This document shows, in pieces, positions 2,829 through 28,635 of a stretch of DNA of 64,000 nucleotides. The notes under the pieces are model-generated. The model was not told where the DNA came from and made no database searches. It was given only the letters and a program-made list of their open reading frames with translations. Every line of letters begins with the position of its first letter. Position 1 is the first letter of the stretch. The stretch is from Halostagnicola larsenii XH-48 (GTDB lineage Archaea > Halobacteriota > Halobacteria > Halobacteriales > Natrialbaceae), in the NCBI RefSeq assembly GCF_000517625.1, contig NZ_CP007057.1:62001-126000 (forward strand), written 5' to 3'. The translations under genes and the position numbers were made by a program.

Positions 2829-2889
2829 AGTGGATCCATATTACCAGAATCCCACGGGGAAGTAATAGGTATGTTAGCTACCTCCTTAC

Positions 2890-2916
2890 CCTATTGCAAC
2901 TATTGTACCTATTACG
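2890..2916. repeat. Three tandem 9-bp CTATT iterons
   Basis: CCTATTGCA, ACTATTGTA and CCTATTACG follow each other in exact 9-bp register, preceded by weaker units (for example CCTCCTTAC). The same 9-bp pattern fills the region upstream of parA at 23.6-23.95 kb. No gene is visible between 2829 and 3408 apart from these units and the hairpin block. Confidence 0.7.
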
Positions 2917-9968: not shown

Positions 9969-10016
9969 CCGCACCCCGTAGACGGTGTGATTCGAACCGG
10001 TGTCCCTCACGCAGGT

Positions 10017-10059
10017 GGCCACCACCATACACTGGTATCTGCTTCAAGTCCCGAGAGTG
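10017..10059 (+). repeat. 43-bp block upstream of first giant gene (copy 1)
   Basis: Identical over 43 bp to 15838-15880 before the second giant gene. It contains ATAC-actg-GTAT. It sits 33 bp before the leader ORF start and is better conserved than the coding sequence that follows, so a promoter or 5' leader role is possible. Confidence 0.75.
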
Positions 10060-10092
10060 TCTCGAGATTACCTGGGGGGAGGTTTTACAGAT

Positions 10093-10209
10093 ATGATCCG
10101 AGAACTGGAAGGAATAGCGGAGGGACGTTCGGACGACGCCACGCAATCACCGTGGACATCGGTCTCGAGACGTGCGATGGAAATGACGCAAACGGTCGAT
10201 TCACGATGA
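10093..10209 (+). CDS. 38-residue leader ORF, coupled to giant surface gene 1
   Basis: ATG at 10093 is preceded by a strong Shine-Dalgarno GGAGG at 10078-10082, and the stop overlaps the next start as ATGA. The paralogous ORF at 15917-16033 has the same length, the same overlap and a similar peptide (common core EGRSD, SPW, RRA, TQTVD). Between copies at least six codons differ only at the third base. No signal peptide or known domain. Possibly a translational coupler or regulator; function unknown. Confidence 0.55.
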   Translation: MIRELEGIAEGRSDDATQSPWTSVSRRAMEMTQTVDSR

Positions 10210-13200
10210 CAGCAGGAAGCCACCGTGCGGAGAGCATGTCGTTATCAATCGGTATCGCAGTCGTCCTACTGGCGGTAAGTGTCGGATTCCTTTCTGCTGG
10301 TGTCGTGGCGGAACCGATCGACGACACAGCGGGAATGTCCGGTGATGCGGCGGAAACGACTACCGTCGCACCGACGTACGAACTCGAGATCGATAACGAC
10401 GGCAGCGCCGCCGCCATCGGTTTCCCTGGCCCCGTCAACGGTACCGTCGACGATCTTTTCGTCAAGGGTACCGACGGCGTTTCCGCCGTCTACCGCTACT
10501 CGCCGGCCGACGCCACCTGGAACAACGTTCTCGAGGGTGACGGCGTCGACGACTTCGACGACGTCTCCGTCGACCCGATGGACTCATTGGTCGTCCTCAC
10601 CACCGGCCAGGGCGATTCCGAGACGATTTCGCTCAAGGTTAGCCTCAAGGCCCAGACCGACGAGACGGGTACGTCCGACCAGCGAGACGTCGACGCGGGC
10701 TGGAACTTCGTCTCCGCGCCGCAATACACCGACGCTGACGCGGCTTTCGGTGCGGACAGCGCCGCCACCGCGTCGCTCGTGCTCGAGCGCTACGACGGCC
10801 CGCGAACCGTCGCCGTCGAGCAGACGCCCGAATTCGGCGAGTACTACCTCGACAGCGGCCAACCGCCAGTGACGGATCCATTTAGCGGCTACTTCGTGTT
10901 CGCACAGGACGACGGCGCTCTCTCAACCGCTGTTAGCGACGTCGCGGATCGGGACGACGCTGACGCACAGTTAGGCCTCCCCGTCATCGAAGACGTCTCG
11001 ATCGGCGGCGAAATATCCTCGAGCGCCGAAGACGGGAACCTGGCCGACGAGGATGTCACGGTCCGACTCGACGGCGAGGAAGTCGACGTCGCTGACGGTG
11101 CCTACGAGACCACCGTCGACCCCGGCGAGTACACGCTGACCGTCGAGGCCGACGGCCACCGAACCGAGACGAGGGAACTCGACGCCCGTTTTGGTACCCA
11201 ATACGACGAAGACATCGCGCTCGATGGCCGGGTCGACAACGGTACCCGAACGTACGTCTCTGCTGCCGCCGCGACGGCGGACGCGGCCGAAGGCGACACC
11301 ATTGTGCTCCGTCCCGGCACCTACGACGAAGACGTCACGATCGAAACCGACGGCGTGACACTGCTCACAGCGGACGCCGCGGCGTCCCGCGCGGGTCCCG
11401 ATGCCGCCGCCGTCGAAACCGAAGCAGACGACGGGTCGACCGTCACGATCAACGGCGTTCTCGAGATCGACGATGCCGACAACGTGACCGTCGCGGACGT
11501 CTCGGTCCGGAGCGACCACTACGGCGTCTCCGTCGTCGACAGCGAGGATATCTCGCTCTCGGCGATAGACGCGACTGTTGGCTCCTCGGGTCTGCACTTC
11601 GACAACGCCTCGTCGGTCGAGACGACTGACTTTCGCGTCGAGGAGGGCCTCTACGGGGTAACCGTCCAGGCGGAAGGCGGCGACCTCGAGGACGTTTCGT
11701 TCGGGCGAGGCGTCGAGTTCGACGTGGCCGTCCCGGTCGCCGTCGTGGGCGAGGACGGCACCGACACGACGGCGGTCCCCGAGATATCGCTTGAGGACGA
11801 TCTGAACTACCGGGTTCCGATGTCGGACACCTACTTCGACGACGGAACCGGCTTCACGTTCGACGAAGCCGCCGCGATCGACGCCGCGATCGCGCTCGAC
11901 GGGGAGGACTCCGTCGACGCGGCCGCGGTTCAGCGAGTCTCGGACGACGCATTCGTCGTCTCGCCGGAGCTGTCGCTTCAGGCCGCGAACGATCTCGCCG
12001 AGGAGGGCGCGACGATCGAGGTTCGCGACGGCACCTACGACAAGGATGTCGAGATCACCACTGACGGGGTGACCGTCACCGGCGACGGAGCGACGTTCGA
12101 AGGGATTGTCAGCGTCAGCGACGCCCGGAACGTGACCATCGATGGGCTCAGAGTAATCGACGCGTTCAACGGCCTCATCCTCTTCGATTCGACCGACACG
12201 ACGATTACGGACGTTGAAGTCTCCGGAGCCGCCAACGGATTCGGGATTGCGGGTTCCGACGGCACCGAAATATCCGGGGTGACGGCTTCCGACAACGAAC
12301 GCGGTCTCATCGTCGCCGATAGTGACGTATACGTGACCGTTTCCGACAGCACGTTCGAAGGGAACAGGGACGGGATCCTCAACGCCGGAGACGGAACGCT
12401 CACCGTCCGGACCGGGACGATCGTCGGGAACGACGCCGGTGCCATCAACGAGGGAGACGGGGCCATCGACGCCGCCGAAAACTGGTGGGGAACTCCGAGC
12501 GGCCCAAGCGGCGATGCCGTTGGCATCGGTGACACCATCACGGACGGCGTCGAGTACGAACCGTGGCTCGACGCCCCACCGGGCGAGGATCCCGTGAGGG
12601 TCGAAGACGCGGGTCTCGCCGTTGAGAACTTCGAAACGGACACGACCGAAGCCGTCCGCGGCGATTCCATCACGACGAGCGCCGACGTAACTCACGAGGT
12701 CGAGAGCGTCGCGCCCGAGAACGCAGACGTGGCCAACGAGGTCGAGGACGTTACGTCCCAGAACGCAGACGGGTCGGAATACCGGATCGAATACGTGCTC
12801 GTCGACGGCGATTACGAGGAGACGATCGCAACGAAGCGCGTCACCCTCACCGTCGGCCAGACCGAACGCGTTACGTTCGAGGAGTCGATCCCGGAGCGCA
12901 CGACCGCCCACGAGCGACGAACCGTCGAGCACGTGGTTCGAGTCGCGGACGAAGGGGCTTCGACCGGCCGCGATCTCGAGCTGGCGAACTCGATCGAGAC
13001 CGCCGTCGAAACCGCTGACGCGACGGGGGCGAGCACGGTCGAGGTCGAACCCGGAACGTACGCGGAAGCGCTGACCGTGGACGTCGACGGCCTGACCCTC
13101 CAGTCGAGCGACGGCGCCGAGGAGACAACCCTCGCCGCGGAGACGGCGACGGTCGCCGGCGAAGACATCACGGTCGACGGATTCACGTTCGACGGCGGAG

Positions 13201-15425
13201 CGGGCGATGCCGCGGTCGTTCTCGCCGGCGACGGCGCGACGCTACGCTCGAGCGTCATTGACTCCGGAGACGCGACCGACGCCGTTCGCGTCGCCGCCGC
13301 CGATGTCGAGGTCACCGACAGCGAACTGTCCGGAGCGACCGACGCGGGCGTCCGGTTCACCGACGGCACTCCCGACGGTACCGTCTCCGAGAGCGACATC
13401 GTTGACAACGGCGTCGGCGTCGTCAACGACGGAACCGTCACCGTCGACGCCCGCTGGAACTGGTGGGGGAGCGCCGGGGGGCCCGGAACGAGCGGGGCCA
13501 ACGATGCCAGCGGCGACGTCGGCGTCGAACCGTGGCTCGACGGCCCGATCCCGGACGGCGAGGCGGTCACCGGCGACATCGCCGGGACGGTCACCGCGTC
13601 CGGCGAAACCAGCGGAACCGACGCCTCGGCGGCGGGAACGATTATGACTACCGCGACACCCGGCGAGACGGATCCGGTCTCCGACGCGGCGGTGACTGTG
13701 TACCCGTTCGATCCCGACGCGTCGGACGAGGAATCGATGGACCCGATCACCGTCGCGTCTGACGGGACCTACGGGATCCCCGACCTCCCGATCGGCACCC
13801 ACGGTCTCGAGGTCAAAGCGGACGGGTTCGCCTCCGAGGTTCGCGCCGTCACCGTCAAGCAGGACGCGAGGACGGATGCGACCGACTTCGCTCTCGAGTA
13901 CGCCGAGAGCGGGACGGTCACGGGCGAGGTCGATCTCGACTACGTCGACCCTGCCGAGGGCCTGACCGTCACGGTCGCCCTCGAGGGGACCGAGTACGCG
14001 ACGGATGTCGATTTCGATGGCGAGGCCGGCACGAAATCGTTCACCATCGACGGCGTGGACGTCGACGTCGACGACGGCTACGCGCTGACCGCCTCGACCG
14101 ACTCGGTTCACTACGGCGAGGAGGTCACGGTCGACGCCTTCGCGGTCGACGTCGGCGAGACCGTCGATGTCGGTCAACTGACGTTCGAACGCGATACCGA
14201 AACAGTCACCGGGACGGCGACGGCCTCCGGCGACACGGCAGACGGGGGCAAAATGATGACCACGGCCGCCACGCCGGGCACCGGCGAGCCCGTCACAGAC
14301 GCGACCGTCACGGTCCATCACTTCGATACCGAGGCGGCCGACAACGGGGACAGAACCGTCGACGTCACTGACGGGACGTTCACCGTTCCAGACGTGCCGG
14401 TCGGTACGCACGGCTTCGTCCTCGAGGGTGATTCGATCGCCAGTACCCTCGAGACGGAGACGGTCGAGACCGGCGGTGAGAACGTCGTCGACTTCGAACC
14501 CGCCTACGCCTCGGGCGGCACCGTCACCGGTACCGTTACGCTTCCACACGCCGCCGACGGCGACTTCGCGGTCGACATGGCGGTCCTCAACGGCGGGACC
14601 GAGGTGGCGACGGGGACGGCGACCGTCCCGGACGGCGAGCAGTCGAGCGAATACTCCATCGAGGACGTGGACGTGAACGTCGACGACGGCTACACGGTCG
14701 AGGCAACGACTGAGGCCTTCGTCGGCACTGAATCGGTCCAAGACGTGACCGTCGATGTCGACGAAACCGCCGGCAAAGTCGACATCGCGTTCGACAAGTC
14801 GGACGCGGTGGCCCAGAACGTCGCCCTCGAGCGCGATGTGAGCGGTACCGCCACAGTCGGCGAGACGGTCACCTACACGGCGACGGTGACCAACGACGCC
14901 GGGACGCCGATCGAGGGGACGACCGTCGACACGAGCGACGACGGCGAGGAAATCACCTACGCCGACGGGCAGTCTGCGACCACGGACGCCGACGGCCGGG
15001 CGACGTTCGAGGTGTCGACCGAGATGCCCCACACGGGCGATTTTGCTACGGAAGACCCGATCGAGTTCACGTTCACCGAGAGCGCGACCGGACACTCGGC
15101 CGGCGACACCGTCGAGTTCGAGGTTGGAGCGGCGGCGAATGTAGACGCCGAGGTGACCAGCACGTCGACGGCGACCTACCCGGTTGCTACGGTCGATATC
15201 GAGGTCGTAGACGAGTTCGGCAACGACGTCTACACCGAGGTCGAAATCGACGTCTCCGGGTTCGAGGAGTTGAAAGACCCGACCAGCGGGGACACGTATA
15301 CCACCACCCCCGGCCCGGTCAAGTTCCGATCCCATGCACTCGAGGATATCACGGAAGTCAGGATAACGGAACCCACCACCGGTGTCTACGACGACGTGCA
15401 CTTCGAACTCGACCCAGACAGGTGA
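10206..15425 (+). CDS. Giant beta-helix surface protein 1
   Basis: A 1739-residue exported protein. The ATG at 10206 was chosen because the paralogue at 16030 starts at the same point, followed by a hydrophobic signal (~residues 14-35). Then: a ~180-residue N-terminal module shared with the paralogue (GFPGPVNGTVDDLFVKGTDG; GWNFVSAPQ), a carboxypeptidase-regulatory-like unit, right-handed beta-helix blocks each closed by an NWWG motif (AENWWGTPSGPSG and WNWWGSAGGPGTSG) followed by an EPWLD segment, an intervening CARDB-like domain, several Cna-B/carboxypeptidase-like repeats (IGTHGLEVKADGF) and a terminal Ig-like domain. No PGF-CTERM tail, so attachment may be non-covalent. Likely an adhesin or matrix protein. 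Confidence 0.85.
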   Translation: MTAGSHRAESMSLSIGIAVVLLAVSVGFLSAGVVAEPIDDTAGMSGDAAETTTVAPTYELEIDNDGSAAAIGFPGPVNGTVDDLFVKGTDGVSAVYRYSPADATWNNVLEGDGVDDFDDVSVDPMDSLVVLTTGQGDSETISLKVSLKAQTDETGTSDQRDVDAGWNFVSAPQYTDADAAFGADSAATASLVLERYDGPRTVAVEQTPEFGEYYLDSGQPPVTDPFSGYFVFAQDDGALSTAVSDVADRDDADAQLGLPVIEDVSIGGEISSSAEDGNLADEDVTVRLDGEEVDVADGAYETTVDPGEYTLTVEADGHRTETRELDARFGTQYDEDIALDGRVDNGTRTYVSAAAATADAAEGDTIVLRPGTYDEDVTIETDGVTLLTADAAASRAGPDAAAVETEADDGSTVTINGVLEIDDADNVTVADVSVRSDHYGVSVVDSEDISLSAIDATVGSSGLHFDNASSVETTDFRVEEGLYGVTVQAEGGDLEDVSFGRGVEFDVAVPVAVVGEDGTDTTAVPEISLEDDLNYRVPMSDTYFDDGTGFTFDEAAAIDAAIALDGEDSVDAAAVQRVSDDAFVVSPELSLQAANDLAEEGATIEVRDGTYDKDVEITTDGVTVTGDGATFEGIVSVSDARNVTIDGLRVIDAFNGLILFDSTDTTITDVEVSGAANGFGIAGSDGTEISGVTASDNERGLIVADSDVYVTVSDSTFEGNRDGILNAGDGTLTVRTGTIVGNDAGAINEGDGAIDAAENWWGTPSGPSGDAVGIGDTITDGVEYEPWLDAPPGEDPVRVEDAGLAVENFETDTTEAVRGDSITTSADVTHEVESVAPENADVANEVEDVTSQNADGSEYRIEYVLVDGDYEETIATKRVTLTVGQTERVTFEESIPERTTAHERRTVEHVVRVADEGASTGRDLELANSIETAVETADATGASTVEVEPGTYAEALTVDVDGLTLQSSDGAEETTLAAETATVAGEDITVDGFTFDGGAGDAAVVLAGDGATLRSSVIDSGDATDAVRVAAADVEVTDSELSGATDAGVRFTDGTPDGTVSESDIVDNGVGVVNDGTVTVDARWNWWGSAGGPGTSGANDASGDVGVEPWLDGPIPDGEAVTGDIAGTVTASGETSGTDASAAGTIMTTATPGETDPVSDAAVTVYPFDPDASDEESMDPITVASDGTYGIPDLPIGTHGLEVKADGFASEVRAVTVKQDARTDATDFALEYAESGTVTGEVDLDYVDPAEGLTVTVALEGTEYATDVDFDGEAGTKSFTIDGVDVDVDDGYALTASTDSVHYGEEVTVDAFAVDVGETVDVGQLTFERDTETVTGTATASGDTADGGKMMTTAATPGTGEPVTDATVTVHHFDTEAADNGDRTVDVTDGTFTVPDVPVGTHGFVLEGDSIASTLETETVETGGENVVDFEPAYASGGTVTGTVTLPHAADGDFAVDMAVLNGGTEVATGTATVPDGEQSSEYSIEDVDVNVDDGYTVEATTEAFVGTESVQDVTVDVDETAGKVDIAFDKSDAVAQNVALERDVSGTATVGETVTYTATVTNDAGTPIEGTTVDTSDDGEEITYADGQSATTDADGRATFEVSTEMPHTGDFATEDPIEFTFTESATGHSAGDTVEFEVGAAANVDAEVTSTSTATYPVATVDIEVVDEFGNDVYTEVEIDVSGFEELKDPTSGDTYTTTPGPVKFRSHALEDITEVRITEPTTGVYDDVHFELDPDR

Positions 15426-15916: not shown

Positions 15917-16033
15917 ATGATTCGAGAATCGGAGAGGGAAACAGAGGGACGTTCGGACGGCGCCATGCGATCACCATGGGCGTCAGTTGCGAGACGTGCG
16001 GTTGAAACGACACAGACGGTTGATACACGATGA
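15917..16033 (+). CDS. 38-residue leader ORF, coupled to giant surface gene 2
   Basis: Paralogue of 10093-10209: same length, ATGA overlap with the next gene, and a GGGGGTG Shine-Dalgarno-like run at about 15897-15903. Peptide begins MIRESERETEGRSDG and ends TTQTVDTR. It is Arg- and Glu-rich with no signal peptide. Retention of an open frame of the same length in both copies suggests that it is translated; function unknown. Confidence 0.55.
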   Translation: MIRESERETEGRSDGAMRSPWASVARRAVETTQTVDTR

Positions 16034-19000
16034 CAGCGGAAAGCCATCGTGCTGAAACGGTATCGCTGGTGATCGGTATCGTCGCCGTTCTACTCATAGC
16101 GAGTCTCGGGTTGCTTTCTGCTGGCGTCGCAGCGGACACGATCGTTTCCGGGGCGGACATGACCGGTGGCGCGGCAGAACCGGCTGACGACGCACCGACG
16201 TACGAACTCGAGATCGACAACGATGGTAGCGCCGCCGCCATCGGGTTCCCCGGGCCCGTCGATGGCACCGTCGACGACCTCTTCGTCGAGGGCACCGACG
16301 GCGTTTCCGCCGTCTACCGGTACTCAGCGGCGGACGAGGGCTGGAATAACGTCCTCGAGGAGGAGGGCGTCAACGACTTCTCGGACGTCTCTGTCGATCC
16401 GATGGATTCGCTGGTCGTCCTCACGACCGGCCAGGGAGATTCGGAGGCGATTCCGCTCGAGGTCACCCTCGAGACGGAAACCGGTGACACGGTTACGCCC
16501 GGCCAGCGAGCCGTCGAAGCGGGGTGGAACTTCGTCTCCTCGCCACAACACACCGACGCCGACACCGTTTTCGGTTCGGGAACCGCCAATACCTCGCTCG
16601 TGCTCGAGCGCTACGACGGCCCGCGAACCGTCGCCGTCGAGCAGACACCCGAGTTCGGCGAGTACTACCTCGACAGCGGCCACCCGCCGACGACGGATCC
16701 CTTTAGCGGCTATTTCGTGTTCGCACAGGACAACGGCACCGTTCCGACCGTCGCGAGCGGTATCACGGATCGGGACGACGCCGACGCCCAATTGGATCTC
16801 CCGACTTTCGACGAAGTGACGGTCCGCGGGGACATCACGTCGGGAGCCGAAGACGGGGCGCTCACCGACGGGGATCTCACCGTTCGACTCGACGGCGAGG
16901 AGATCGACGTTACCGATGGCGAGTACGAGGAAACGCTCGCACCCGGCGAGTACACGGTGACCGTGGAAGCCGACGGTCACCAGACGGCGACGCGGGAACT
17001 CGACGCCCGTTTCGCCACGACATACGAGGAGGACATCGAACTCGAGGGTGCCGTCGTGAATCGGGACGGCGAGAAATCGTACGTCTCGGCGGCCGCGGCT
17101 GCGGAAGACGCTGGCGACGGCGCGACGATCTCCCTCGAATCGGGAACGTACGAGGACGATCTCGAGATCACCGCCGACAATGTCACCATCGAGGGAACCT
17201 CTGGAGTCTCGCTCGTGTCGACCGCTGCGAAGACCGGCGAGACGACTGTCGTCGGCGACATCGATATCGCGGCCAACGGGGTGACGATCAGGGACCTTTC
17301 GGTGCACGACGGAACGGTCTCCGCCGGTAGCTCCGACGACCTGGCGTTGTCCGGCCTCGACATCATGGGGGAGACCGGTACTGCTGATCCTGGAGTGAAT
17401 TCGGCCGGTATCGAGGTCGAAGGGGGAACAAACCTCTCGATCACGGACGTAGCGATCGAGGCCGACCGCGGTATCTCCGTCAGCGGCGTTCGAACCGCCG
17501 ATCTGCGCGGTATCGACGTGACGACCGACGACGGAACGGGGCTCGTTCTCTACGACGCCACGGGCGTCGACCTCGACGGAGTGGCCGTCGAGGGGGCGGA
17601 CCAGGCCGTCGGACTCATTAATCTCGCTGACAGCACAGCCGGGAACGTCACGATCGAAGACAGCAATCTCGGGCTCGCCGTCGGGAACGAAAGCGGTTCC
17701 CAGACGCGACCGGAGAACCTTACGTTGACGGGCGATCTCGAGCTGGGGGCTATCGTCCCGTACGCGGAGATGACCGAGGATACGACGGATCCGGTCGATA
17801 TCGATCGGCCCGACGGATTGACGTACGCGATTCGAACCGAACCGGTCAGCGGAGTGCCGGTCTCGATAACCGGCTTCGCGTACGACGAAACAAGTGCCAT
17901 CGCGGGTGCGGTGGCGCTCACCGATGCGAGCAGCGGGCAGCCGCTCGCCGAAGCCAGTGCGGTCCAACGGATCTCGGACGAGGTGTACGTCGTCGCGCCG
18001 GAAACGTCGCCCCAGGACGCCGCCGACATCGCAAGCGAGGGCGCGACGATCGAAGTTCGGGAGGGGACGTACGACGGGGAGATGTCGATCCAGACCGACG
18101 GCGTCACTGTCTCCGGCGAAAATGCGACGTTCGAAGAAAAATTCGAGATCGACAGCGCGAACGACGTCACCCTTGACGGACTGTCGGCCACGAACCACAC
18201 CATCGGAATCGAGGTGGCGTCTTCGAGTGGGGTGACTCTCAGGGATGTAAACGCGAGCGGAAACGAGTATGAGGGTTTGCTGGTCGATTCGTCCCAGAAC
18301 GTCGAGATCGTCGACGCGACAGCCAGCGATAACTACAACGGGTTGATCAACGTTGGCGACGGCACCTCCGTCACCGCGTCAAACAGCACGTTTGCCGAGA
18401 ACGAAGGGTGGGGAGTCGGGACCGACGGCGACGGCTCGCTCACCGTTCGAAACAGCACGATCAACGGCAACGGCGACGGCGCTGGCATTTGGAACGACGG
18501 GACGCTGGATGCCGCCGAGAACTGGTGGGGTGATTCGAGTGGACCGAGCGGCGAAGCCGACGGCACCGGCGACTCCGTCGACAGCGGCGTTGACTACGAG
18601 CCGTGGCTCGACGCCCCGCCGGGAGAGGGCCCCGGCGGCCTCGAGGACGCCGGCGTCGAACTATCGAACTTCGAAACGGACGCGACCGCGGCCAACCGCG
18701 GCGACACCGTCACCACGAGCGTCGACGTGACGAACGCGGTCGAAAGCGCCGGTATTTCGACGATGGCGATCAATGACGGCGCGGAATTCGAGGTGGAGTA
18801 CGTGCTTGTCGACGGCAAGGACGAAGCACAGATCGCGAGCGAGACGGTGACTGTCGTCGCGGGCGAGACGGAGACCGTCGAGTTCACCGAATCGCTGCCC
18901 GGAAGCACGACCGCTCACGAGGAACGATCCGTCGAACACGAAATCAGGATCGCCGGCGAAGGGGTAGGCGAACGCGCCGACCTCGAGCTCTCCAACCCGG

Positions 19001-21102
19001 TTCAGACCGCACTCGAGTTCGCCGAGTCGGAGGGCACGAACACGGTCGACGTCGAATCTGGGACGTACGACGAAACGGTCGACCTTGACGTTGACGGCCT
19101 GACAGTGACCGGTCCAGCCGACGGAACCGCGACGATCACGAACGACTCCACGCCGGTAACCGTCTCCGGAACCGGAACCACCGTCGAGGGCCTAACGATC
19201 GAATCGACCGATCTCGATTCTGCCGTCGAAATCGTCGATCCGGCGACCGACGTAACCGTGGCCGACAACGCCATCGACGGCGGGGTCTTTGTGGCCGCGA
19301 ACGACGGCAATCTCGACGGCGTCACGATCGAAAGAAACGAGATCGAGGCTGTGGAGAACAACGGCGTACTCGCGTCGGTTAGCGGCGATGATACGGTGAT
19401 CGACGGCCTCGAGATCGTCGACAACGTCTTCGGCGAGTACCACCAGAACGCGATCAGAGTGTACTCCGCCAGTGGCGGAGAATTCATTGCCCCGGTCGAG
19501 ATCACCGGGAACGAAATCGTCGAGGAGGATATCTTTGAATCCGACGGTATCTACGTCCACGCAGCGATAGAAAGCGTCTCGATCGAGAACAACGAGATTC
19601 GTAACGCTCAAAGTAGCGCGATCAACGTCCAAGGAGCTGCGGCCGAGATCACGGTTCGCCAGAATACGATCGCCGACAACGGAGCGGGGATCAAACTCTA
19701 CAGCTCCGGGACGCTCGAGGCGACCGAGAACTGGTGGGGCGACGCAAGCGGCCCGAGTGGGATCGGCGATGGTACCGGGGACGCAATCGAAGTTGACGGT
19801 GATGGATCCGTCGAGTACGAACCGTGGCTCGACGGGCCGATTCCCGACGGCGAGCCGGTCACCGGCGATGTAACCGGGACTGTGATCGCCTCCGGCGAGA
19901 TGACCACGCGGTCGACAGTCGGAAGTGCCGCCCCCATCACGGACGCGGACGTCACGATCCATCTGTACGACCCCGACGCGGTTGGCGACGGTAACGAGAC
20001 GGTCGCCGTGGACGACGAAGGGACGTTCCTCGCGGAGGACATCCCGATCGGAACGCACGGACTCGTCGTGGAGGCCGATGGTTACGCGACCGACGAGCGC
20101 ACCGTTCGGGTCGATCGCGACCAGACGACGACCGCCGATTTCGACCTCGATTACGCGGAGGGCGGTTCCATCGAGGGAACCGTGTCGCTGGGCGGCGAGC
20201 CGAGCGAATCGGTGAGCGTCGACGTGATCGCGACAAACGGCGACGAGACGTTCACCGACGCCGTCACGATAGACGACCAAAGCGATAGCGCGGAGTACTC
20301 GATCGACGCCGACGTCGACGTCGACGATGGATACGCGGTGACAGCCGAGGCGACCGGCGACGCTGCGGACGAGTTCGCGACCGAAACCGACGACGTCGAG
20401 GTCGGAATCGGGGAGACCGTCACCCTCGACCTCGCGCTCGAACCGCTCGCGACGCAGGTGGATTACGAGGCCGATCCTGCCGACGAGACCGTCATCGACG
20501 ACGGCTCGGACGCGATCACGTACACGGTAACCAGCGCAAACGCTCTGGGAATTTCGGTCGCCGGGATCGAGGTCGAAGCCGACGCCTCCGCCGGGGAGAG
20601 CGTCGATGTCAACGGCGACGGTGACACCGCGACGGAAGAGACGGACGCGACCGGCGCGGTCGAGTTCGTCGTCACCTCCGATACCATCCAAGACGATGTC
20701 GGGGTCGCTTTCACCGAGCGACAGACCGGAAACGAACACGGCGTGACCGGGACTCTCGAGGTCATCAATGAGGTTGACGAACTGAACCTGGCACTCGAGT
20801 CCCCGGTGCCCGACGCGACGGTCATTGAGATTTCCCTCGAGGTTATCGGCGTTCACGGCGATCCCGTTGACGGCGAGTCCATCAACTTGCAGATCAACGA
20901 GGGAAGCGGCCGTCTTCACCTTCACGGGATGGATCAAGGTGATCAGACGAACCACTACACGGACGGTAGCGGTGACTTCGCTCCCACCCAAAATACCGGG
21001 GACCAGCCCCAGTACATCGGTGAGTACGGAGAGCAAGTCGAGATCGAAGCGTCGGACGAAGACGGCGAGGTCGTCGAGACGGCCACAGCCGTGTTGGAGT
21101 GA
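16030..21102 (+). CDS. Giant beta-helix surface protein 2
   Basis: A 1690-residue paralogue of the preceding giant protein, with signal segment (~residues 14-38), the same N-terminal module (GWNFVSSPQHTDAD; PEFGEYYLDSG), two parallel beta-helix regions ending in AENWWGDSSGPSG and ENWWGDASGPSG, a CARDB-like domain between them, one carboxypeptidase-like repeat rather than several, and a C-terminal Ig-like region. The beta-helix parts have diverged more than the N-terminus and the EPWLD linkers, as expected for ligand-facing coils. No PGF-CTERM tail. Probably cell-surface adhesion or glycan binding; beta-helices of this kind can also be lyases, but no catalytic set is evident. Confidence 0.85.
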   Translation: MTAESHRAETVSLVIGIVAVLLIASLGLLSAGVAADTIVSGADMTGGAAEPADDAPTYELEIDNDGSAAAIGFPGPVDGTVDDLFVEGTDGVSAVYRYSAADEGWNNVLEEEGVNDFSDVSVDPMDSLVVLTTGQGDSEAIPLEVTLETETGDTVTPGQRAVEAGWNFVSSPQHTDADTVFGSGTANTSLVLERYDGPRTVAVEQTPEFGEYYLDSGHPPTTDPFSGYFVFAQDNGTVPTVASGITDRDDADAQLDLPTFDEVTVRGDITSGAEDGALTDGDLTVRLDGEEIDVTDGEYEETLAPGEYTVTVEADGHQTATRELDARFATTYEEDIELEGAVVNRDGEKSYVSAAAAAEDAGDGATISLESGTYEDDLEITADNVTIEGTSGVSLVSTAAKTGETTVVGDIDIAANGVTIRDLSVHDGTVSAGSSDDLALSGLDIMGETGTADPGVNSAGIEVEGGTNLSITDVAIEADRGISVSGVRTADLRGIDVTTDDGTGLVLYDATGVDLDGVAVEGADQAVGLINLADSTAGNVTIEDSNLGLAVGNESGSQTRPENLTLTGDLELGAIVPYAEMTEDTTDPVDIDRPDGLTYAIRTEPVSGVPVSITGFAYDETSAIAGAVALTDASSGQPLAEASAVQRISDEVYVVAPETSPQDAADIASEGATIEVREGTYDGEMSIQTDGVTVSGENATFEEKFEIDSANDVTLDGLSATNHTIGIEVASSSGVTLRDVNASGNEYEGLLVDSSQNVEIVDATASDNYNGLINVGDGTSVTASNSTFAENEGWGVGTDGDGSLTVRNSTINGNGDGAGIWNDGTLDAAENWWGDSSGPSGEADGTGDSVDSGVDYEPWLDAPPGEGPGGLEDAGVELSNFETDATAANRGDTVTTSVDVTNAVESAGISTMAINDGAEFEVEYVLVDGKDEAQIASETVTVVAGETETVEFTESLPGSTTAHEERSVEHEIRIAGEGVGERADLELSNPVQTALEFAESEGTNTVDVESGTYDETVDLDVDGLTVTGPADGTATITNDSTPVTVSGTGTTVEGLTIESTDLDSAVEIVDPATDVTVADNAIDGGVFVAANDGNLDGVTIERNEIEAVENNGVLASVSGDDTVIDGLEIVDNVFGEYHQNAIRVYSASGGEFIAPVEITGNEIVEEDIFESDGIYVHAAIESVSIENNEIRNAQSSAINVQGAAAEITVRQNTIADNGAGIKLYSSGTLEATENWWGDASGPSGIGDGTGDAIEVDGDGSVEYEPWLDGPIPDGEPVTGDVTGTVIASGEMTTRSTVGSAAPITDADVTIHLYDPDAVGDGNETVAVDDEGTFLAEDIPIGTHGLVVEADGYATDERTVRVDRDQTTTADFDLDYAEGGSIEGTVSLGGEPSESVSVDVIATNGDETFTDAVTIDDQSDSAEYSIDADVDVDDGYAVTAEATGDAADEFATETDDVEVGIGETVTLDLALEPLATQVDYEADPADETVIDDGSDAITYTVTSANALGISVAGIEVEADASAGESVDVNGDGDTATEETDATGAVEFVVTSDTIQDDVGVAFTERQTGNEHGVTGTLEVINEVDELNLALESPVPDATVIEISLEVIGVHGDPVDGESINLQINEGSGRLHLHGMDQGDQTNHYTDGSGDFAPTQNTGDQPQYIGEYGEQVEIEASDEDGEVVETATAVLE

Positions 21103-22187: not shown

Positions 22188-22589
22188 TCACTCGAGGGAC
22201 TCTTCACGTGTCTTGTGGATTTGGTCTGGAACCTCGTCGATGTGATCGAGTGCAACTTTGAGTATAGCATCATGGACTTCACGAGTTTCCTCGTCTCGGA
22301 TCTCCATCCGGCGAAGCTCTGGCGTGACCTGTATCCCGAGTTTATCCTCGAGTTCATCCCACGTTTTGTCCCGCGCGTACAGTGGTTTTTGCCGAACCTC
22401 ACTGTATTCAAACCCTGGCCCTGCGTCTGATGGCGATTTCGGTTCTGCGGATGGCGTTTGGGGTTCCGTCGATTGAGTCGATGTTTGTGTTGGTGAACTC
22501 GATTCTGGTGCGGATTCCGATTCTGTTTCGCTCTTGGTATCGATACCATCGTCGTCACTGTCGAGATCGTCAAACGGGTTATTGCTCAT
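22188..22589 (-). CDS. ParA-associated small acidic protein
   Basis: 133 residues: an acidic, Ser/Thr/Pro-rich disordered N-terminus (~1-60) and a compact C-terminal half (KTWDELEDKLGIQVTPELRR). It follows parA with an ATGA overlap, the position of the DNA- or ParA-binding partner in plasmid partition operons. I recognise no ParB/HTH motif, so the partner role is inferred from position. The upstream parA carries the likely operator and iterons. Confidence 0.7.
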   Translation of the reverse strand: MSNNPFDDLDSDDDGIDTKSETESESAPESSSPTQTSTQSTEPQTPSAEPKSPSDAGPGFEYSEVRQKPLYARDKTWDELEDKLGIQVTPELRRMEIRDEETREVHDAILKVALDHIDEVPDQIHKTREESLE

Positions 22590-23476
22590 CGATTGACCCC
22601 TCCATTCGCGACGATCTCAGCGAGTTCTTGGTAGTACTGAATCTGGTCGCTATCTGGATCATACTCCTGCAGTGGCTGGTTTTCTTGTAGTGACCGCGAT
22701 AGCGCTGATCGGTGTCGAATTCCGGGTTTTGGGGCCTGCATTTCACCCGCATCGATTCGATCGAATTCCTCAGCCGTAATACGGGCAAATGTCGGCACCA
22801 CTTCTTGGAGTGATTGGCCGTCGTTGACCTCGTAGCTTGCCGTATTCAAATTCTCGAGCAATTCACGATCTTCTGTCTGCTGGTCGATTCGATCTGAGAG
22901 CTTGTTCGGGACCACCGCGAGTACGTCCACGTCGATATATTCACGTGCTGGCTCGATGAGTCGTTCCATTGTCCGTTTGTACCCACCGATCGCGCTCGAG
23001 CCGGGTTCGATCGGGATAATGACGTTCCCCGTTGCGACGAGCGCATTATTGTTGAGCATGCCCGGATACGCCGGACAGTCAAATACCACGAAGTCATACT
23101 CCTCACCAAGGAGCGGATCGACGATTTTCGATTTGACTCTGGCCGATCCCTGCATTGCCCCGGCCAAATCCTTCTCGACATCCTCGAGAGTGTTCGATGA
23201 GGGGAGTAGATCGAAGCCGTGATCGGTTGTTTGTATAATATCGCCAGGTGTCGCATCCCCCTCAAGGATTACATCACCAAGATTCGTCGTGTTCTGGTAT
23301 GCGTCTTCGAACCCTAGCCCGTTCGTTGCATGCCCGTTCGGATCGAGGTCTGCAAATAATGTTTGGCCGTGTTCTGCCAACTGACGGGCGAGGTTCATTG
23401 ACGTCGTTGATTTTCCAACTCCTCCCTTTAGGATAACTACGCTTACGGCTTGCGGAGTTTCTATACTCGTTTCCAT
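22586..23476 (-). CDS. ParA-type partition ATPase
   Basis: 296 residues. The deviant Walker A is KGGVGKST at residues 17-24 with the signature Lys K17; ADLDPNGHATNG is the A'/switch I segment, and FVVFDCPAY is Walker B. This places it with ParA/Soj ATPases that segregate plasmids on the nucleoid. There is no N-terminal HTH, so autoregulation would need another DNA-binding protein, perhaps the downstream partner. The gene is preceded by a perfect palindrome and a 9-bp-periodic array. No Orc/Cdc6 or RepH initiator is in the window. It supports a plasmid or integrated-plasmid origin. Confidence 0.92.
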   Translation of the reverse strand: METSIETPQAVSVVILKGGVGKSTTSMNLARQLAEHGQTLFADLDPNGHATNGLGFEDAYQNTTNLGDVILEGDATPGDIIQTTDHGFDLLPSSNTLEDVEKDLAGAMQGSARVKSKIVDPLLGEEYDFVVFDCPAYPGMLNNNALVATGNVIIPIEPGSSAIGGYKRTMERLIEPAREYIDVDVLAVVPNKLSDRIDQQTEDRELLENLNTASYEVNDGQSLQEVVPTFARITAEEFDRIDAGEMQAPKPGIRHRSALSRSLQENQPLQEYDPDSDQIQYYQELAEIVANGGVNR

Positions 23477-23508: not shown

Positions 23509-23522
23509 AATAGGTACCTATT
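23509..23522. promoter_or_regulatory. Perfect palindrome upstream of parA, possible operator
   Basis: AATAGGTACCTATT is a perfect 14-bp palindrome 32 bp before the parA start and is made of two inverted copies of the ACCTATT iteron core. Confidence 0.55.
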
Positions 23523-23613
23523 CCGGATATTATTCTTCTGAGGGCTTTCATTGGTGAACAAGAGTGTCATAGGAGGTGACTGGCTTAAAATTACCGAAGA
23601 TAGCTACTTGAGA

Positions 23614-23950
23614 TGCAATAGGTAGGATAGATAGAATAGGTGCACCACCCATCTCACCTAAAGTCCCTGACCTACCTATTGCATCTATTCTGACTATTGA
23701 ATCTATTCGATGGGTCTTTACTCAGCCACCTATTCCAGCTACTCTGTCTATTTCCCCTGTTGTACCTATCGGAGCTACCGCACCTGCTTAGGTCATGTTG
23801 GTAGAGGTCCCTTGTTTCCCTATTGAAGGAAAGATGCGTGAGTTAACAGTTGGAATCCCACTGGCGATACCTTAGGTACCTCAGGCACCTTATCTAAGGC
23901 ACCTCCCTCACCTATTGCACCTATTTTCCCTTTAGCAGCTAGTTACCCGG
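23614..23950. repeat. 9-bp-periodic CTATT iteron array, candidate centromere
   Basis: Clusters of 9-bp units with core NCTATT: an inverted set at 23614-23644 bounded by TGCA; four units at 23675-23710; seven degenerate units in register at 23728-23790 (pattern NNCTAYYNN); and another run near 23905-23945. With the palindrome at 23509 this fits the site bound by a partition protein. No gene is visible from 23477 to 24600. Confidence 0.6.
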
Positions 23951-24317
23951 TGAAGGCGAGAGAGTACCTGCGAAGCTGGAACTGTAGCCCTTTCTTGGAC
24001 ACACGATAAAAGGTGGAACCCCTCGCCAAAAGGATCAAAGGCGTCAATAGAAGCACTACAGATTGCCCCTTTTGAGTCGAAGATTGTGACGACGTATTTA
24101 TCACACTGCTGTCATTCCGGAGGCTCCTTGTCAGCTGGCTTTGTCTACGTTGTTTGAAGAGTTCGTGATAGAGCTCCGATCACGCATCACTTGAACTCAG
24201 GAACGATCCCGGCAAACGCGGTTGCCACCCTGTCTCTGTCTACCAATGGGCTTTGGCAAGACATTACGATTCCACGATACACTCTAAAATAGGAAACTAT
24301 TATTCAATAGCTGAGTC

Positions 24318-24339
24318 AGCTACCTCATCTGAGGTAGCT
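24318..24339. repeat. Perfect 10-bp-arm inverted repeat
   Basis: AGCTACCTCA and TGAGGTAGCT are separated by 2 bp. It could be a terminator hairpin, an operator or a transposon end. It has no T-run. Confidence 0.4.
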
Positions 24340-24549
24340 ACTTGTTCGTGATTCCCAAAGACATCTTCCCACCAAGCACTCGCCGCATAATCGCTTTCTT
24401 CACCATCTCGACCGATAGGGTATTTGTAGAATCGACACTATGCCGGTGGGTGATGGTCTCGTAACTGACTACGTCACGGGTCTCGAGGATTCGTCTCCTC
24501 GATCGCGAAATTGATTTCATCGGTACCGGTCTATCTTTCTTCGAGGAGA

Positions 24550-25319: not shown

Positions 25320-27941
25320 TTAGCGAAGGCGGCCGAGTAGCTTGTAGTCGTGGTCCGGCGTGTACCGCCGGAACAGCAGGCTGTTCGACAGCACCGATAC
25401 GCTCGAGAACGCCATCGCGACGGCGGCGAGCACGGGCTGGAGCAGGCCGAGCGAAGCCAGCGGGATCATCGCAGTGTTGTACCCCAGCGCCCACACGAGG
25501 TTCTGCTTGATCTTCTGGAGCGTCGCGTCCGAGATGCGGATCGCCTTCACGACGTCCACCGGATCGTCACGCATCAGGGTGACGTCGGCGGCCTCGATGG
25601 CGACGTCCGTGCCCGACCCAATGGCCGTGCCGACGTACGCAACCGCGAGCGCTGGCGCGTCGTTGACGCCGTCACCGACCATCATCGCCTTTCGACCGCT
25701 TTCCTGAATGGATTCCACGGCGTCGGACTTGTCTTCGGGAAGGACCTCCGCGCGGACGTTCTCGGGGTCGATCTCGACCTGCTCAGCGACGGCGCGGGCC
25801 GTCCGCTCGTTGTCGCCGGTGATCATCATTACGTCGACACCCCGCTCCTGGAGTTGGCTGACCGCGTCCTTCGCACTCTCCTTGACCGTGTCGGCGTCGG
25901 CGACCACGCCCACGAGTTCTCCTTCGTAGCCAACTAGCATCGCCGTCTTGCCCTCGCTCTCGAGGCGCTCCATCGTCCCCTGCGCGGGCGCGGGGTCGAT
26001 CCCATTGTCACGCAGGAGCTTCCGGTTGCCGACCAGCACCTCGTTGCCGTTAACAGTCGCTTTGACGCCGTGACCGGGGACGTTCTCGAAGCCGTCGGGG
26101 TCACTCACGTCGATACCGCGATCTTCCGCTCCGTCGACGATGGCGCGGGCGAGCGGGTGTTCGCTCCCACTTTCAGCGATTGCCGCGAGCCGAAGCACGT
26201 CGTCCTCGCTGAGCCGCTCAGCAGCAGTCAGTTGGCCCCCATCAGCGCTGGGAGTCCCCCCGTCGGTTCGCTCACCACCATCTGCGACGGGCTGGCCGTC
26301 GTCACCGAAGACGACGACATCGGTCAACTCCATCTCGCCTTGCGTGAGCGTCCCGGTCTTGTCGAAGACGACCGTATCGACGTCCTTCGCGCGTTCGAGG
26401 ACGTCGCCGCCCTTGAACAGGACGCCGTTCTGTGCACCGAGGGTCGTCCCGACCATCGTCGCGGCGGGCGTCGCGAGGCCCAGCGCACAGGGACAGGCGA
26501 TCAGCACCGATGAGGCGAAGACGATGATCGCGAACTCGAAGACCGAGACGCCGCCAGCGGCGACGGGGCCACCTGCGACGAGGCCCCACAGCGGGAGCGC
26601 GTCGACGAAGCCCGCGAGAGTCGTGGGGAACAGAGACCAGACGACGCCCCAGATCAGGGCGTTCACGATGACTGCAGGGACGAAGTACGCGGAGATGCGG
26701 TCCGCGAGGTTCTGGATATCGGGCTGGCGGGACTGTGCTTCCTTCACCGTTTGCACGATCTGCTGGAGCGCCGTATCCGAGCCGACCTTCGTCGCCTCGA
26801 TGACGAGCACACCGTTCTCGTTGATAGTCGACCCGACCACCTCGTCGCCCTCGCCCTTCTCGACGGGGACGGACTCGCCGGTCACCATCGACTCGTCGAC
26901 TGCCGACTGGCCGTCGACGACGACGCCGTCGGTGGGGATCTGCTCGCCGGGCCGGACCTTCATCCGGTCGCCGACCTCGACATCCTCGAGCGGGATCTCT
27001 TCCTCGTTTCCACCCTCGTCAATGACGGTAGCGGTGTCTGCCTCCATCTCGAGGAGTTTCCGGAGCGCCTCGCCGGCCTGGCCCTTCGAGCGGGCCTCGA
27101 GGTAGTTGCCGAGCGTGATGAACACCAGGATAAACGCCGCCGTGTCGAAGTACAGCCCGCCAGCGATGGTGCCGAGCAAGACTGCCACGGAGTAGACGTA
27201 CGCGGTCGTCGAGCCCAGCGCGATCAGCACGTCCATGTTGGCGCGGCCGTTCTTGACGAGCGCCTTGTAGGAGTTCTCGTAGAACGGCTTGCCGAGCACC
27301 AACTGGACGGGCGTCGCTAGTGCGAACATGATCCATCCAGACGAAAGGCCGAAGAGTTCGTCTCCGATGAGCCCGAGTTCCAGCAGGTGCTCAGCCATGA
27401 ACACCAGCAGGGGAAGGGACAGTACGGCACCGAACAGCGTCAGCCGGAGTTGCCGACGGACCTCTTCTTGCCGGGCGGCTTCTCGGGCATCGCCGCCTGA
27501 GCCATCGTCAGTCTCGGCGTCCTCTCGGACAGGCGAGTAGCCAGCGTCTTCGATGGCGTCGTAGAAGTCCCCCAGATTCGCTTCGGCGGGGTTGTACGTG
27601 ACCTGTGCTTCGTCGGTCGCGAAGTTGGCGTCGGCGGCGACGACGCCCGGCGTCTCTTCGAGTGTGTCCTGTATCGTCTCCGAGCAGTTCGCACACGACA
27701 TATCGGTGATCGGGATCGTGATCGAGTCCGTCACTGGCGAGTAGCCTGCTTCCTCGATCGTGTCGAATATCTCACCGAGTGAGACCTCCTCGGGGTCGTA
27801 CGCTACCGATCCCTCGTCGGTGGCGAAGTTGATCTTCGCCTCCGAGACGCCGTCGAGCGAGCTGACGGCATCGGAGATGGTTTGCGAACAGTTCGCACAA
27901 CTCATCCCCTGAACATTGATTTGGCTTTTTCGCTGACTCAT
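25320..27941 (-). CDS. copA: Copper-translocating P1B-type ATPase
   Basis: 873 residues. Two N-terminal heavy-metal-associated domains carry GMSCANC (C15, C18) and DMSCANC (~80-84). Then eight predicted membrane helices with the CPC transport motif (ACPCALG), the TGES actuator loop ([12 protein letters not shown]), the phosphorylation site [10 protein letters not shown] and the hinge [10 protein letters not shown]. These define a CopA-type Cu(I) exporter. A low-complexity insert ([18 protein letters not shown]) follows the P-site. ATG at 27939-27941. The Lrp-TRASH regulator 94 bp upstream on the same strand is the usual haloarchaeal partner. It pumps copper out of the cytoplasm. Confidence 0.93.
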
Positions 27942-28035
27942 TACCTATCCATACGGGCCCCGCATTTAGTGGAGTTTCCCTTTCAGAGGTTCAGCTATTG
28001 CGACCCAAAAGTTTCGAATACAAAGTGTGGCCCAT

Positions 28036-28635
28036 TCACTCAGCACCCTGCTGAAGTCGGTCGTATTTCTCCGTAAATCGAGTCTCACACGACGGACAAC
28101 AGAACTGGTACGACTCTCCGTCGATACGGGTCGCCGTTCCCTCGCTGTCGACCGTATTCCCGCACTGAGCGCAGGTGAGGGCAAACTCTGTACCGCCTAA
28201 GTCGGGTGCCCAGTCAGCCCCTGCCAGGAGTGTCACCCCGAAGTCGTCGAACGCGTCCGCATCGATAGTATCTGCAAGCCAGCTGGCGATGTCGTTGTCC
28301 GGGACTTTGGCGTAGATGATCAGGTCGGCTTCGGCCGTGGTGAACACGTGTTCGACTGCGCCGTCGTCCAGGAGGTCTGCTTTGATCGACGAAACACCGG
28401 GGCCCGCTGAGGCGATATCGAGTGTAATCAACACCGGAATACCGCCTCGGAGTTGCGAGCGATCGACATCAAGCGTGAACCGATTGATGATACCCATCTC
28501 CTCTAATCTCGCTACCCGATCCGACACGGCCGGGGCCGAGAGCCCGACGGTATCCGCGATGTCACTGTACGGCCGACGAGCGTTCGACATCAGTAACTGG
28601 AGGATCTCGAGGTCGGTTTCGTCGAGGTTGTGCAT
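28036..28635 (-). CDS. Lrp/AsnC-family regulator with TRASH domain
   Basis: 199 residues. N-terminal winged HTH (residues ~5-50: LDETDLEILQLLMSNARRPY, SAPAVSDRVARLEEMG), a central ligand-type domain (~60-140), and a C-terminal TRASH metal-binding domain with C155, C158, C179, C180 and C183. Such proteins sense copper and control copA; here the copA gene lies just downstream on the same strand. Regulation of the pair by copper is inference from family and position. ATG at 28633-28635. Confidence 0.9.
   Translation of the reverse strand: MHNLDETDLEILQLLMSNARRPYSDIADTVGLSAPAVSDRVARLEEMGIINRFTLDVDRSQLRGGIPVLITLDIASAGPGVSSIKADLLDDGAVEHVFTTAEADLIIYAKVPDNDIASWLADTIDADAFDDFGVTLLAGADWAPDLGGTEFALTCAQCGNTVDSEGTATRIDGESYQFCCPSCETRFTEKYDRLQQGAE

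Follow-up and report, generated by a model that had tools for sequence, protein, structure and literature searches.

The par locus of the C3 replicon

The window, i.e., the whole 64-kb stretch analysed here, comprises positions 62001-126000 of contig C3 (464,581 bp), one of the five contigs of the 4.13-Mb genome. It contains a parA gene, a small partner gene and a repeat array upstream of parA, arranged as follows (positions in the window; array segments called with a cyclic 9-state model, with an additional pattern search for the distant satellite):

22586..23476, minus strand: parA, an ORF coding for a 296-aa ParA-type ATPase with a KGGVGKST Walker A motif (Pfam AAA_31, E 3.5e-30)
22188..22589, minus strand: the partner gene, an ORF of 133 aa overlapping the end of parA by 4 bp; candidate centromere-binding protein
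22563..22580, minus strand: N-terminal NPFDDL motif of the partner, a putative ParA-contact motif; all 15 aligned partners have F6 and L9
22371..22397, minus strand: VRQKPLYAR, partner residues 65-73, a candidate recognition strand co-varying with the array word
23509..23522, no strand: inverted unit pair (palindrome) AATAGGTACCTATT, promoter-proximal, 33-46 bp before the parA ATG; candidate operator
23589..23856, no strand: main 9-bp array, with units in plus orientation at 23590-23644, in minus orientation at 23645-23786, and short mixed segments thereafter
23866..23944, minus strand: array tail in a different 9-bp phase
24286..24342, no strand: satellite array segment with both orientations
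2864..2913, no strand: distant satellite, in which AATAG occurs three times without mismatch in 9-bp register

ParA proteins of type Ib are recognised by size and domain content, as ParA-type ATPases with a deviant Walker A motif and no N-terminal DNA-binding domain. The parA product agrees with this definition in its length and its AAA_31 domain, the Walker A motif lying inside the first ~25 residues with only a short leader ahead of it. As in type Ib loci, a small partner gene lies directly 3' of parA and a repeat array 5' of it. The partner itself carries an acidic linker besides the N-terminal NPFDDL. By ParA, the nearest named relatives are Natrialbaceae plasmids, and annotated named plasmids repeatedly show the partner gene immediately 3' of parA. 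The gene pair is present in 141 of the 155 loci examined (eight of the 14 loci lacking it belong to the 13-bp family described below), while the partner has relatives in 138 of 293 genomes from the order.

The 9-bp array

The original prediction placed CTATT units in an exact 9-bp register, in both orientations, at 23509-23950, and proposed autocorrelation at 9 bp against shuffled sequence as a check. In this segment the self-identity averaged over lags 9, 18, and 27 is 0.387, above every one of 5000 dinucleotide shuffles (0.253 +/- 0.012, maximum 0.303), and CTATT/AATAG occurs in 13 copies versus 1.6 expected. CTA positions between 23604 and 23820 keep a single 9-bp phase, with the sole exception of 23672, and units occur in both orientations. 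The register and the mixed orientation are thus borne out, as is the palindrome just ahead of parA. The predicted extent needs adjustment: the array does lie there, but it ends at about 23944 and has further segments at 24286-24342 and 2864-2913. The last of these, an isolated 50-bp cluster 20.7 kb from parA and outside the larger ORFs listed, is a possible second binding site.

The raw lag-9 score alone reaches its window maximum at ~21.6 kb, in a low-complexity coding stretch that scores above the array, so that harmonics and codon lags are required to set the array apart. The 9-specific score is 0.138 for the array and exceeds 0.05 in none of 414 stretches of 450 bp elsewhere in the window.

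Conservation of the layout among haloarchaea

In a first set comprising the window locus, 16 named plasmid loci, and 28 related loci, all with parA and not all independent, the top lag upstream of parA (range 4-40) was in all 45 cases a multiple of 9. Mean identity was 0.345, 0.342, 0.317, and 0.312 at lags 9, 18, 27, and 36, and ~0.25 elsewhere, including the codon lags 12, 15, 21, and 24, which showed no excess. Among 1402 control windows drawn from these loci a multiple of 9 came on top in 31%, and the 9-specific score exceeded 0.05 in 33 of the 45 arrays versus four of the controls. The larger set consisted of 139 usable loci among the 141 with the gene pair; those left out were L072, whose upstream region runs beyond the contig end, and L019, with too little upstream sequence. 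A multiple of 9 was the top lag in 127 of the 139 and in 92 of 102 non-redundant loci, the other ten peaking elsewhere. For non-redundant loci outside the named genomes, some of them perhaps from the same species as named ones, the count was 60 of 68. Compared with their own shuffles, 90 of 103 loci exceeded z 3 (one of the 103, L072, represents the wrong sequence). The 9-bp layout is therefore kept across haloarchaeal families despite different array words. An inverted pair resembling ACAATAGGtnCCTATtg is likewise found ~33-46 bp before the assigned start in most of 21 window-class loci inspected, on the basis of which autoregulation is proposed.

Another ParA and partner family shows a different period. 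The proximal 250 bp upstream of parA peaks at multiples of 13 bp in 9/9 loci, i.e., one on contig C2 of the same H. larsenii genome and eight on named plasmids (L114-L121; 8 of 40 listed, taken from the best matches), with controls less full than those for the 9-bp family. Partners of the eight plasmids start with MTGxKxG, and the C2 partner starts likewise; the 13-bp arrays also vary in word. In the sampled loci, the period thus goes with the partner family. A profile comparison of the two partner families aligned 27 columns near the C-terminus only, with a probability of 47%, too little to establish common ancestry for the two putative reader domains. Contig C4 of this genome codes for a ParA-like protein that lacks a canonical Walker A motif, at a locus with no visible 9- or 13-bp array.

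Replicon specificity and co-resident loci

Three AATAG in 9-bp register, with up to two mismatches, match the H. larsenii genome 11 times, and all 11 matches are on C3, which makes up 11% of it. They occupy four places: the array, the satellite at 2864-2913, and single weak matches at C3:282438 and C3:453799. The reversed control pattern gave eight matches in this genome, at positions not given. Contig C5, another plasmid of the strain, carries a related parA-partner pair and a 9-bp array of a different word, GTGTACAC, whose top lag in the 450-bp test is 7, slightly above the multiples of 9.

Of 30 pairs of loci residing in the same genome, 18 were left after removal of 12 with a weak word; they are few, non-independent, and cover part of the multi-locus genomes. 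Close words were found in two of these 18 pairs versus 36% of 4833 between-genome pairs; in one of the two, a 12-kb contig (G162) carries an identical copy.

The array word and the partner strand

The array word differs among clades, being CAATAGGT, TCGTACGA, TTGTACAC, ATCTACAT, and others. Grouping the loci by the partner segment corresponding to VRQKPLYAR gives the following averaged words:

V[RQK]Q[KR]P[LF]YAR: AcCTATTgt (CAATAGGT on the opposite strand)
VKQSPLYAR: nCTnAGnta
DLRRSIY[TA]R: TCGTAcGAA
TT[AP]KS[VI]YVR: tTgTacAcn
TDMHGFYVR: ATctACAta

Co-variation was assessed in 80 of 103 loci, words with a model score <45, L072, and L087 being excluded. Word distance correlates with the distance in the strand (Mantel r 0.751), with that in ParA (0.742), and with that in the remainder of the C-terminal domain (0.531). 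The strand retains a partial r of 0.462 when ParA is removed and of 0.631 when the remainder of the domain is removed; the remainder falls to 0.098 once the strand is removed. ParA distance still tracks the word after removal of the strand (partial r 0.438), indicating that common descent accounts for part of the correlation. Within the partner, it is the strand VRQKPLYAR that carries the word information, though descent matters too.

By column, with ParA removed, P69 (0.57) and Q67 (0.50) are the highest, followed by L110, Y62, and A72, which rank ahead of V65 (0.30), and K68 is at -0.16. Loci alike at V65, Q67, and P69 have closer words in each ParA-distance bin. The alternating signal of P69, Q67, and V65 is what would be expected of a strand lying in the DNA groove, and a groove-bound strand is what we infer from it.

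The dyad symmetry of single-locus words is barely above that of column-shuffled ones (0.47 vs 0.40). Only in certain clades do the averaged words suggest a palindromic unit (0.77-0.95), and the window clade is not among them (0.31). One partner clade with the DLRRSIY strand (L139, L142, L143, L152) has near-palindromic TCGTACGA units.

The partner domain

Searches of Pfam, NCBIfam, PHROGs, and PDB sequences with the partner gave no credible family, and no ribbon-helix-helix family was found among the Pfam matches of 32 partner C-terminal domains. The Pfam and NCBIfam scans agree with the original prediction that the partner has no recognised DNA-binding domain. Weak matches to TFIIE lay mostly over the acidic linker and were discarded. 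In two single-chain AF2 models of the domain (mean pLDDT 72.3 and 82.8), three helices come after a segment to which no structure, and hence no strand, is assigned; the first helix is 21 residues long, and that of ribbon-helix-helix proteins is generally shorter. A ribbon-helix-helix-like topology is a possibility. Foldseek returned no matches for the first model and three insignificant ones for the second, and a comparison with VIA-align 2 yielded nothing usable. No relative of the domain was found in the viral contigs scanned with it; the haloviruses phiH and PhiCh1 do encode relatives of ParA, 26-34% identical.

Relation to known partition systems

The locus shares several features with the ParABS system of pSM19035 (delta/omega; PMC9499535): a ParA-type ATPase with a small partner, there a ribbon-helix-helix ParB reading 7-bp heptads, short units that adjoin one another in both orientations and overlap the promoter, and several separate arrays on the plasmid. 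It differs in the 9-bp unit, the far longer array, the haloarchaeal host, and the partner, which has no recognisable sequence relation to omega, carries NPFDDL and the acidic linker, and is encoded 3' of parA in a gene overlapping it. With SegAB of Sulfolobales it shares an archaeal ParA-type ATPase and a partner which in SegAB binds sites 5' of its own operon (PMC12284271) and is predicted to do so here. SegB, however, reads 13-bp palindromes dispersed over the chromosome, in contrast to one phased plasmid array, and no sequence link between SegAB and the present partner was found. The AspA-ParB-ParA cassette of pNOB8 is likewise an archaeal plasmid partition system with a site 5' of the cassette (PMC5120986), but it has three genes and a 23-bp palindrome, and no 9-bp array is described there. 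In Deinococcus radiodurans the par loci of secondary replicons also have a direct-repeat array 5' of parAB (PMC7671480); these are bacterial, and the comparison covers array placement.

The nature of the centromere on archaeal chromosomes and plasmids has been named as an open question (PMC5120986). In the open literature searched, no description of a haloarchaeal plasmid centromere was found. The idea that both site and binder may be new holds in this literature, but the architecture matches that of type Ib partition loci already known.

A candidate centromere and its predicted reader

The recurrence of the layout on haloarchaeal plasmids and the change of word in step with the partner strand make the array probably a centromere and the partner its reader. 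More fully, the 464-kb replicon probably has in this array both the centromere (parS) and the operator for a partition locus similar to type Ib, with the 133-residue partner as its predicted reader. The archaeal centromere originally predicted here has thus gained comparative support, position, period, and mixed orientation being conserved, the word co-varying with the strand and being confined to this replicon.

The periodicity might have arisen by chance, from coding periodicity, or by simple-sequence drift, as a lag-9 excess occurs elsewhere too, at ~21.6 kb and in the 31% of control windows. This reading is ruled out by the controls: the array is non-coding, the codon lags lack an excess, the 9-specific score separates arrays from control windows, and the pattern persists across families with different words. 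It is also very improbable that the units are replication iterons at which a plasmid initiator binds. Iterons are generally short phased repeats, and Orc1/Cdc6-type genes do lie near parA on some plasmids, but no such gene adjoins the array on C3, where the sole Orc1/Cdc6 family match, at 1542, is about 83 kb from the array (~85.5-85.9 kb of the contig); other named loci have no annotated initiator gene in the flanks examined, and the array word follows the partner strand.

An operator without any centromere role, the partner being a parA autorepressor and the long array regulatory, has in its favour the conserved inverted pair 33-46 bp before the start codon and the likely promoter overlapped by the array, yet we consider it unlikely. 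A simple operator would not need some 430 bp of units, nor satellites as far off as 20.7 kb, and ParA adjoins the array throughout. A single array, moreover, does both jobs in a known system, the ParB-pSM sites overlapping promoters (PMC9499535).

If the array is a centromere with operator function, its mode of action may be sketched by analogy with omega/ParB-pSM, of which each dimer occupies one 7-bp unit and at least four contiguous units are required for ParA activation (PMC9499535). The partner, probably a dimer, would read one 9-bp unit through an N-terminal strand of its C-terminal domain. Copies in either orientation would occupy the ~430 bp next to one another, with loading that may be cooperative, to form the partition complex. 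NPFDDL on its acidic linker would then stimulate nucleoid-bound ParA-ATP, leading to plasmid movement and segregation, and partner bound at the promoter-proximal pair would act as repressor of the operon.

A wider rule can be formulated, the prospects of which we judge evenly balanced. The partner family would set the period (9 bp with NPFDDL, 13 bp with MTGxKxG) and a few alternating strand residues the word, so that coexisting plasmids differ in word and form partition incompatibility groups; the reader domain would represent an undescribed DNA-binding family. The candidate centromere crosses haloarchaeal families and is testable in laboratory haloarchaea, e.g., Haloferax volcanii, since a reader has been named for it, its unit is defined, and there are residues that could be mutated. 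It would also offer a rule, based on sequence, for the incompatibility of plasmids in haloarchaea, which hold several large ones per cell, as well as building blocks for stable vectors.

Neighbouring genes

A heavy-metal P-type ATPase gene lies beside that of a TRASH-domain regulator of the AsnC type at 25320-28635, a likely metal-efflux pair adjoining the par locus. On the other side, 9987-15425 and 16030-21102 code for two very large adjacent proteins with NosD-like right-handed beta-helix and carboxypeptidase-regulatory domains.
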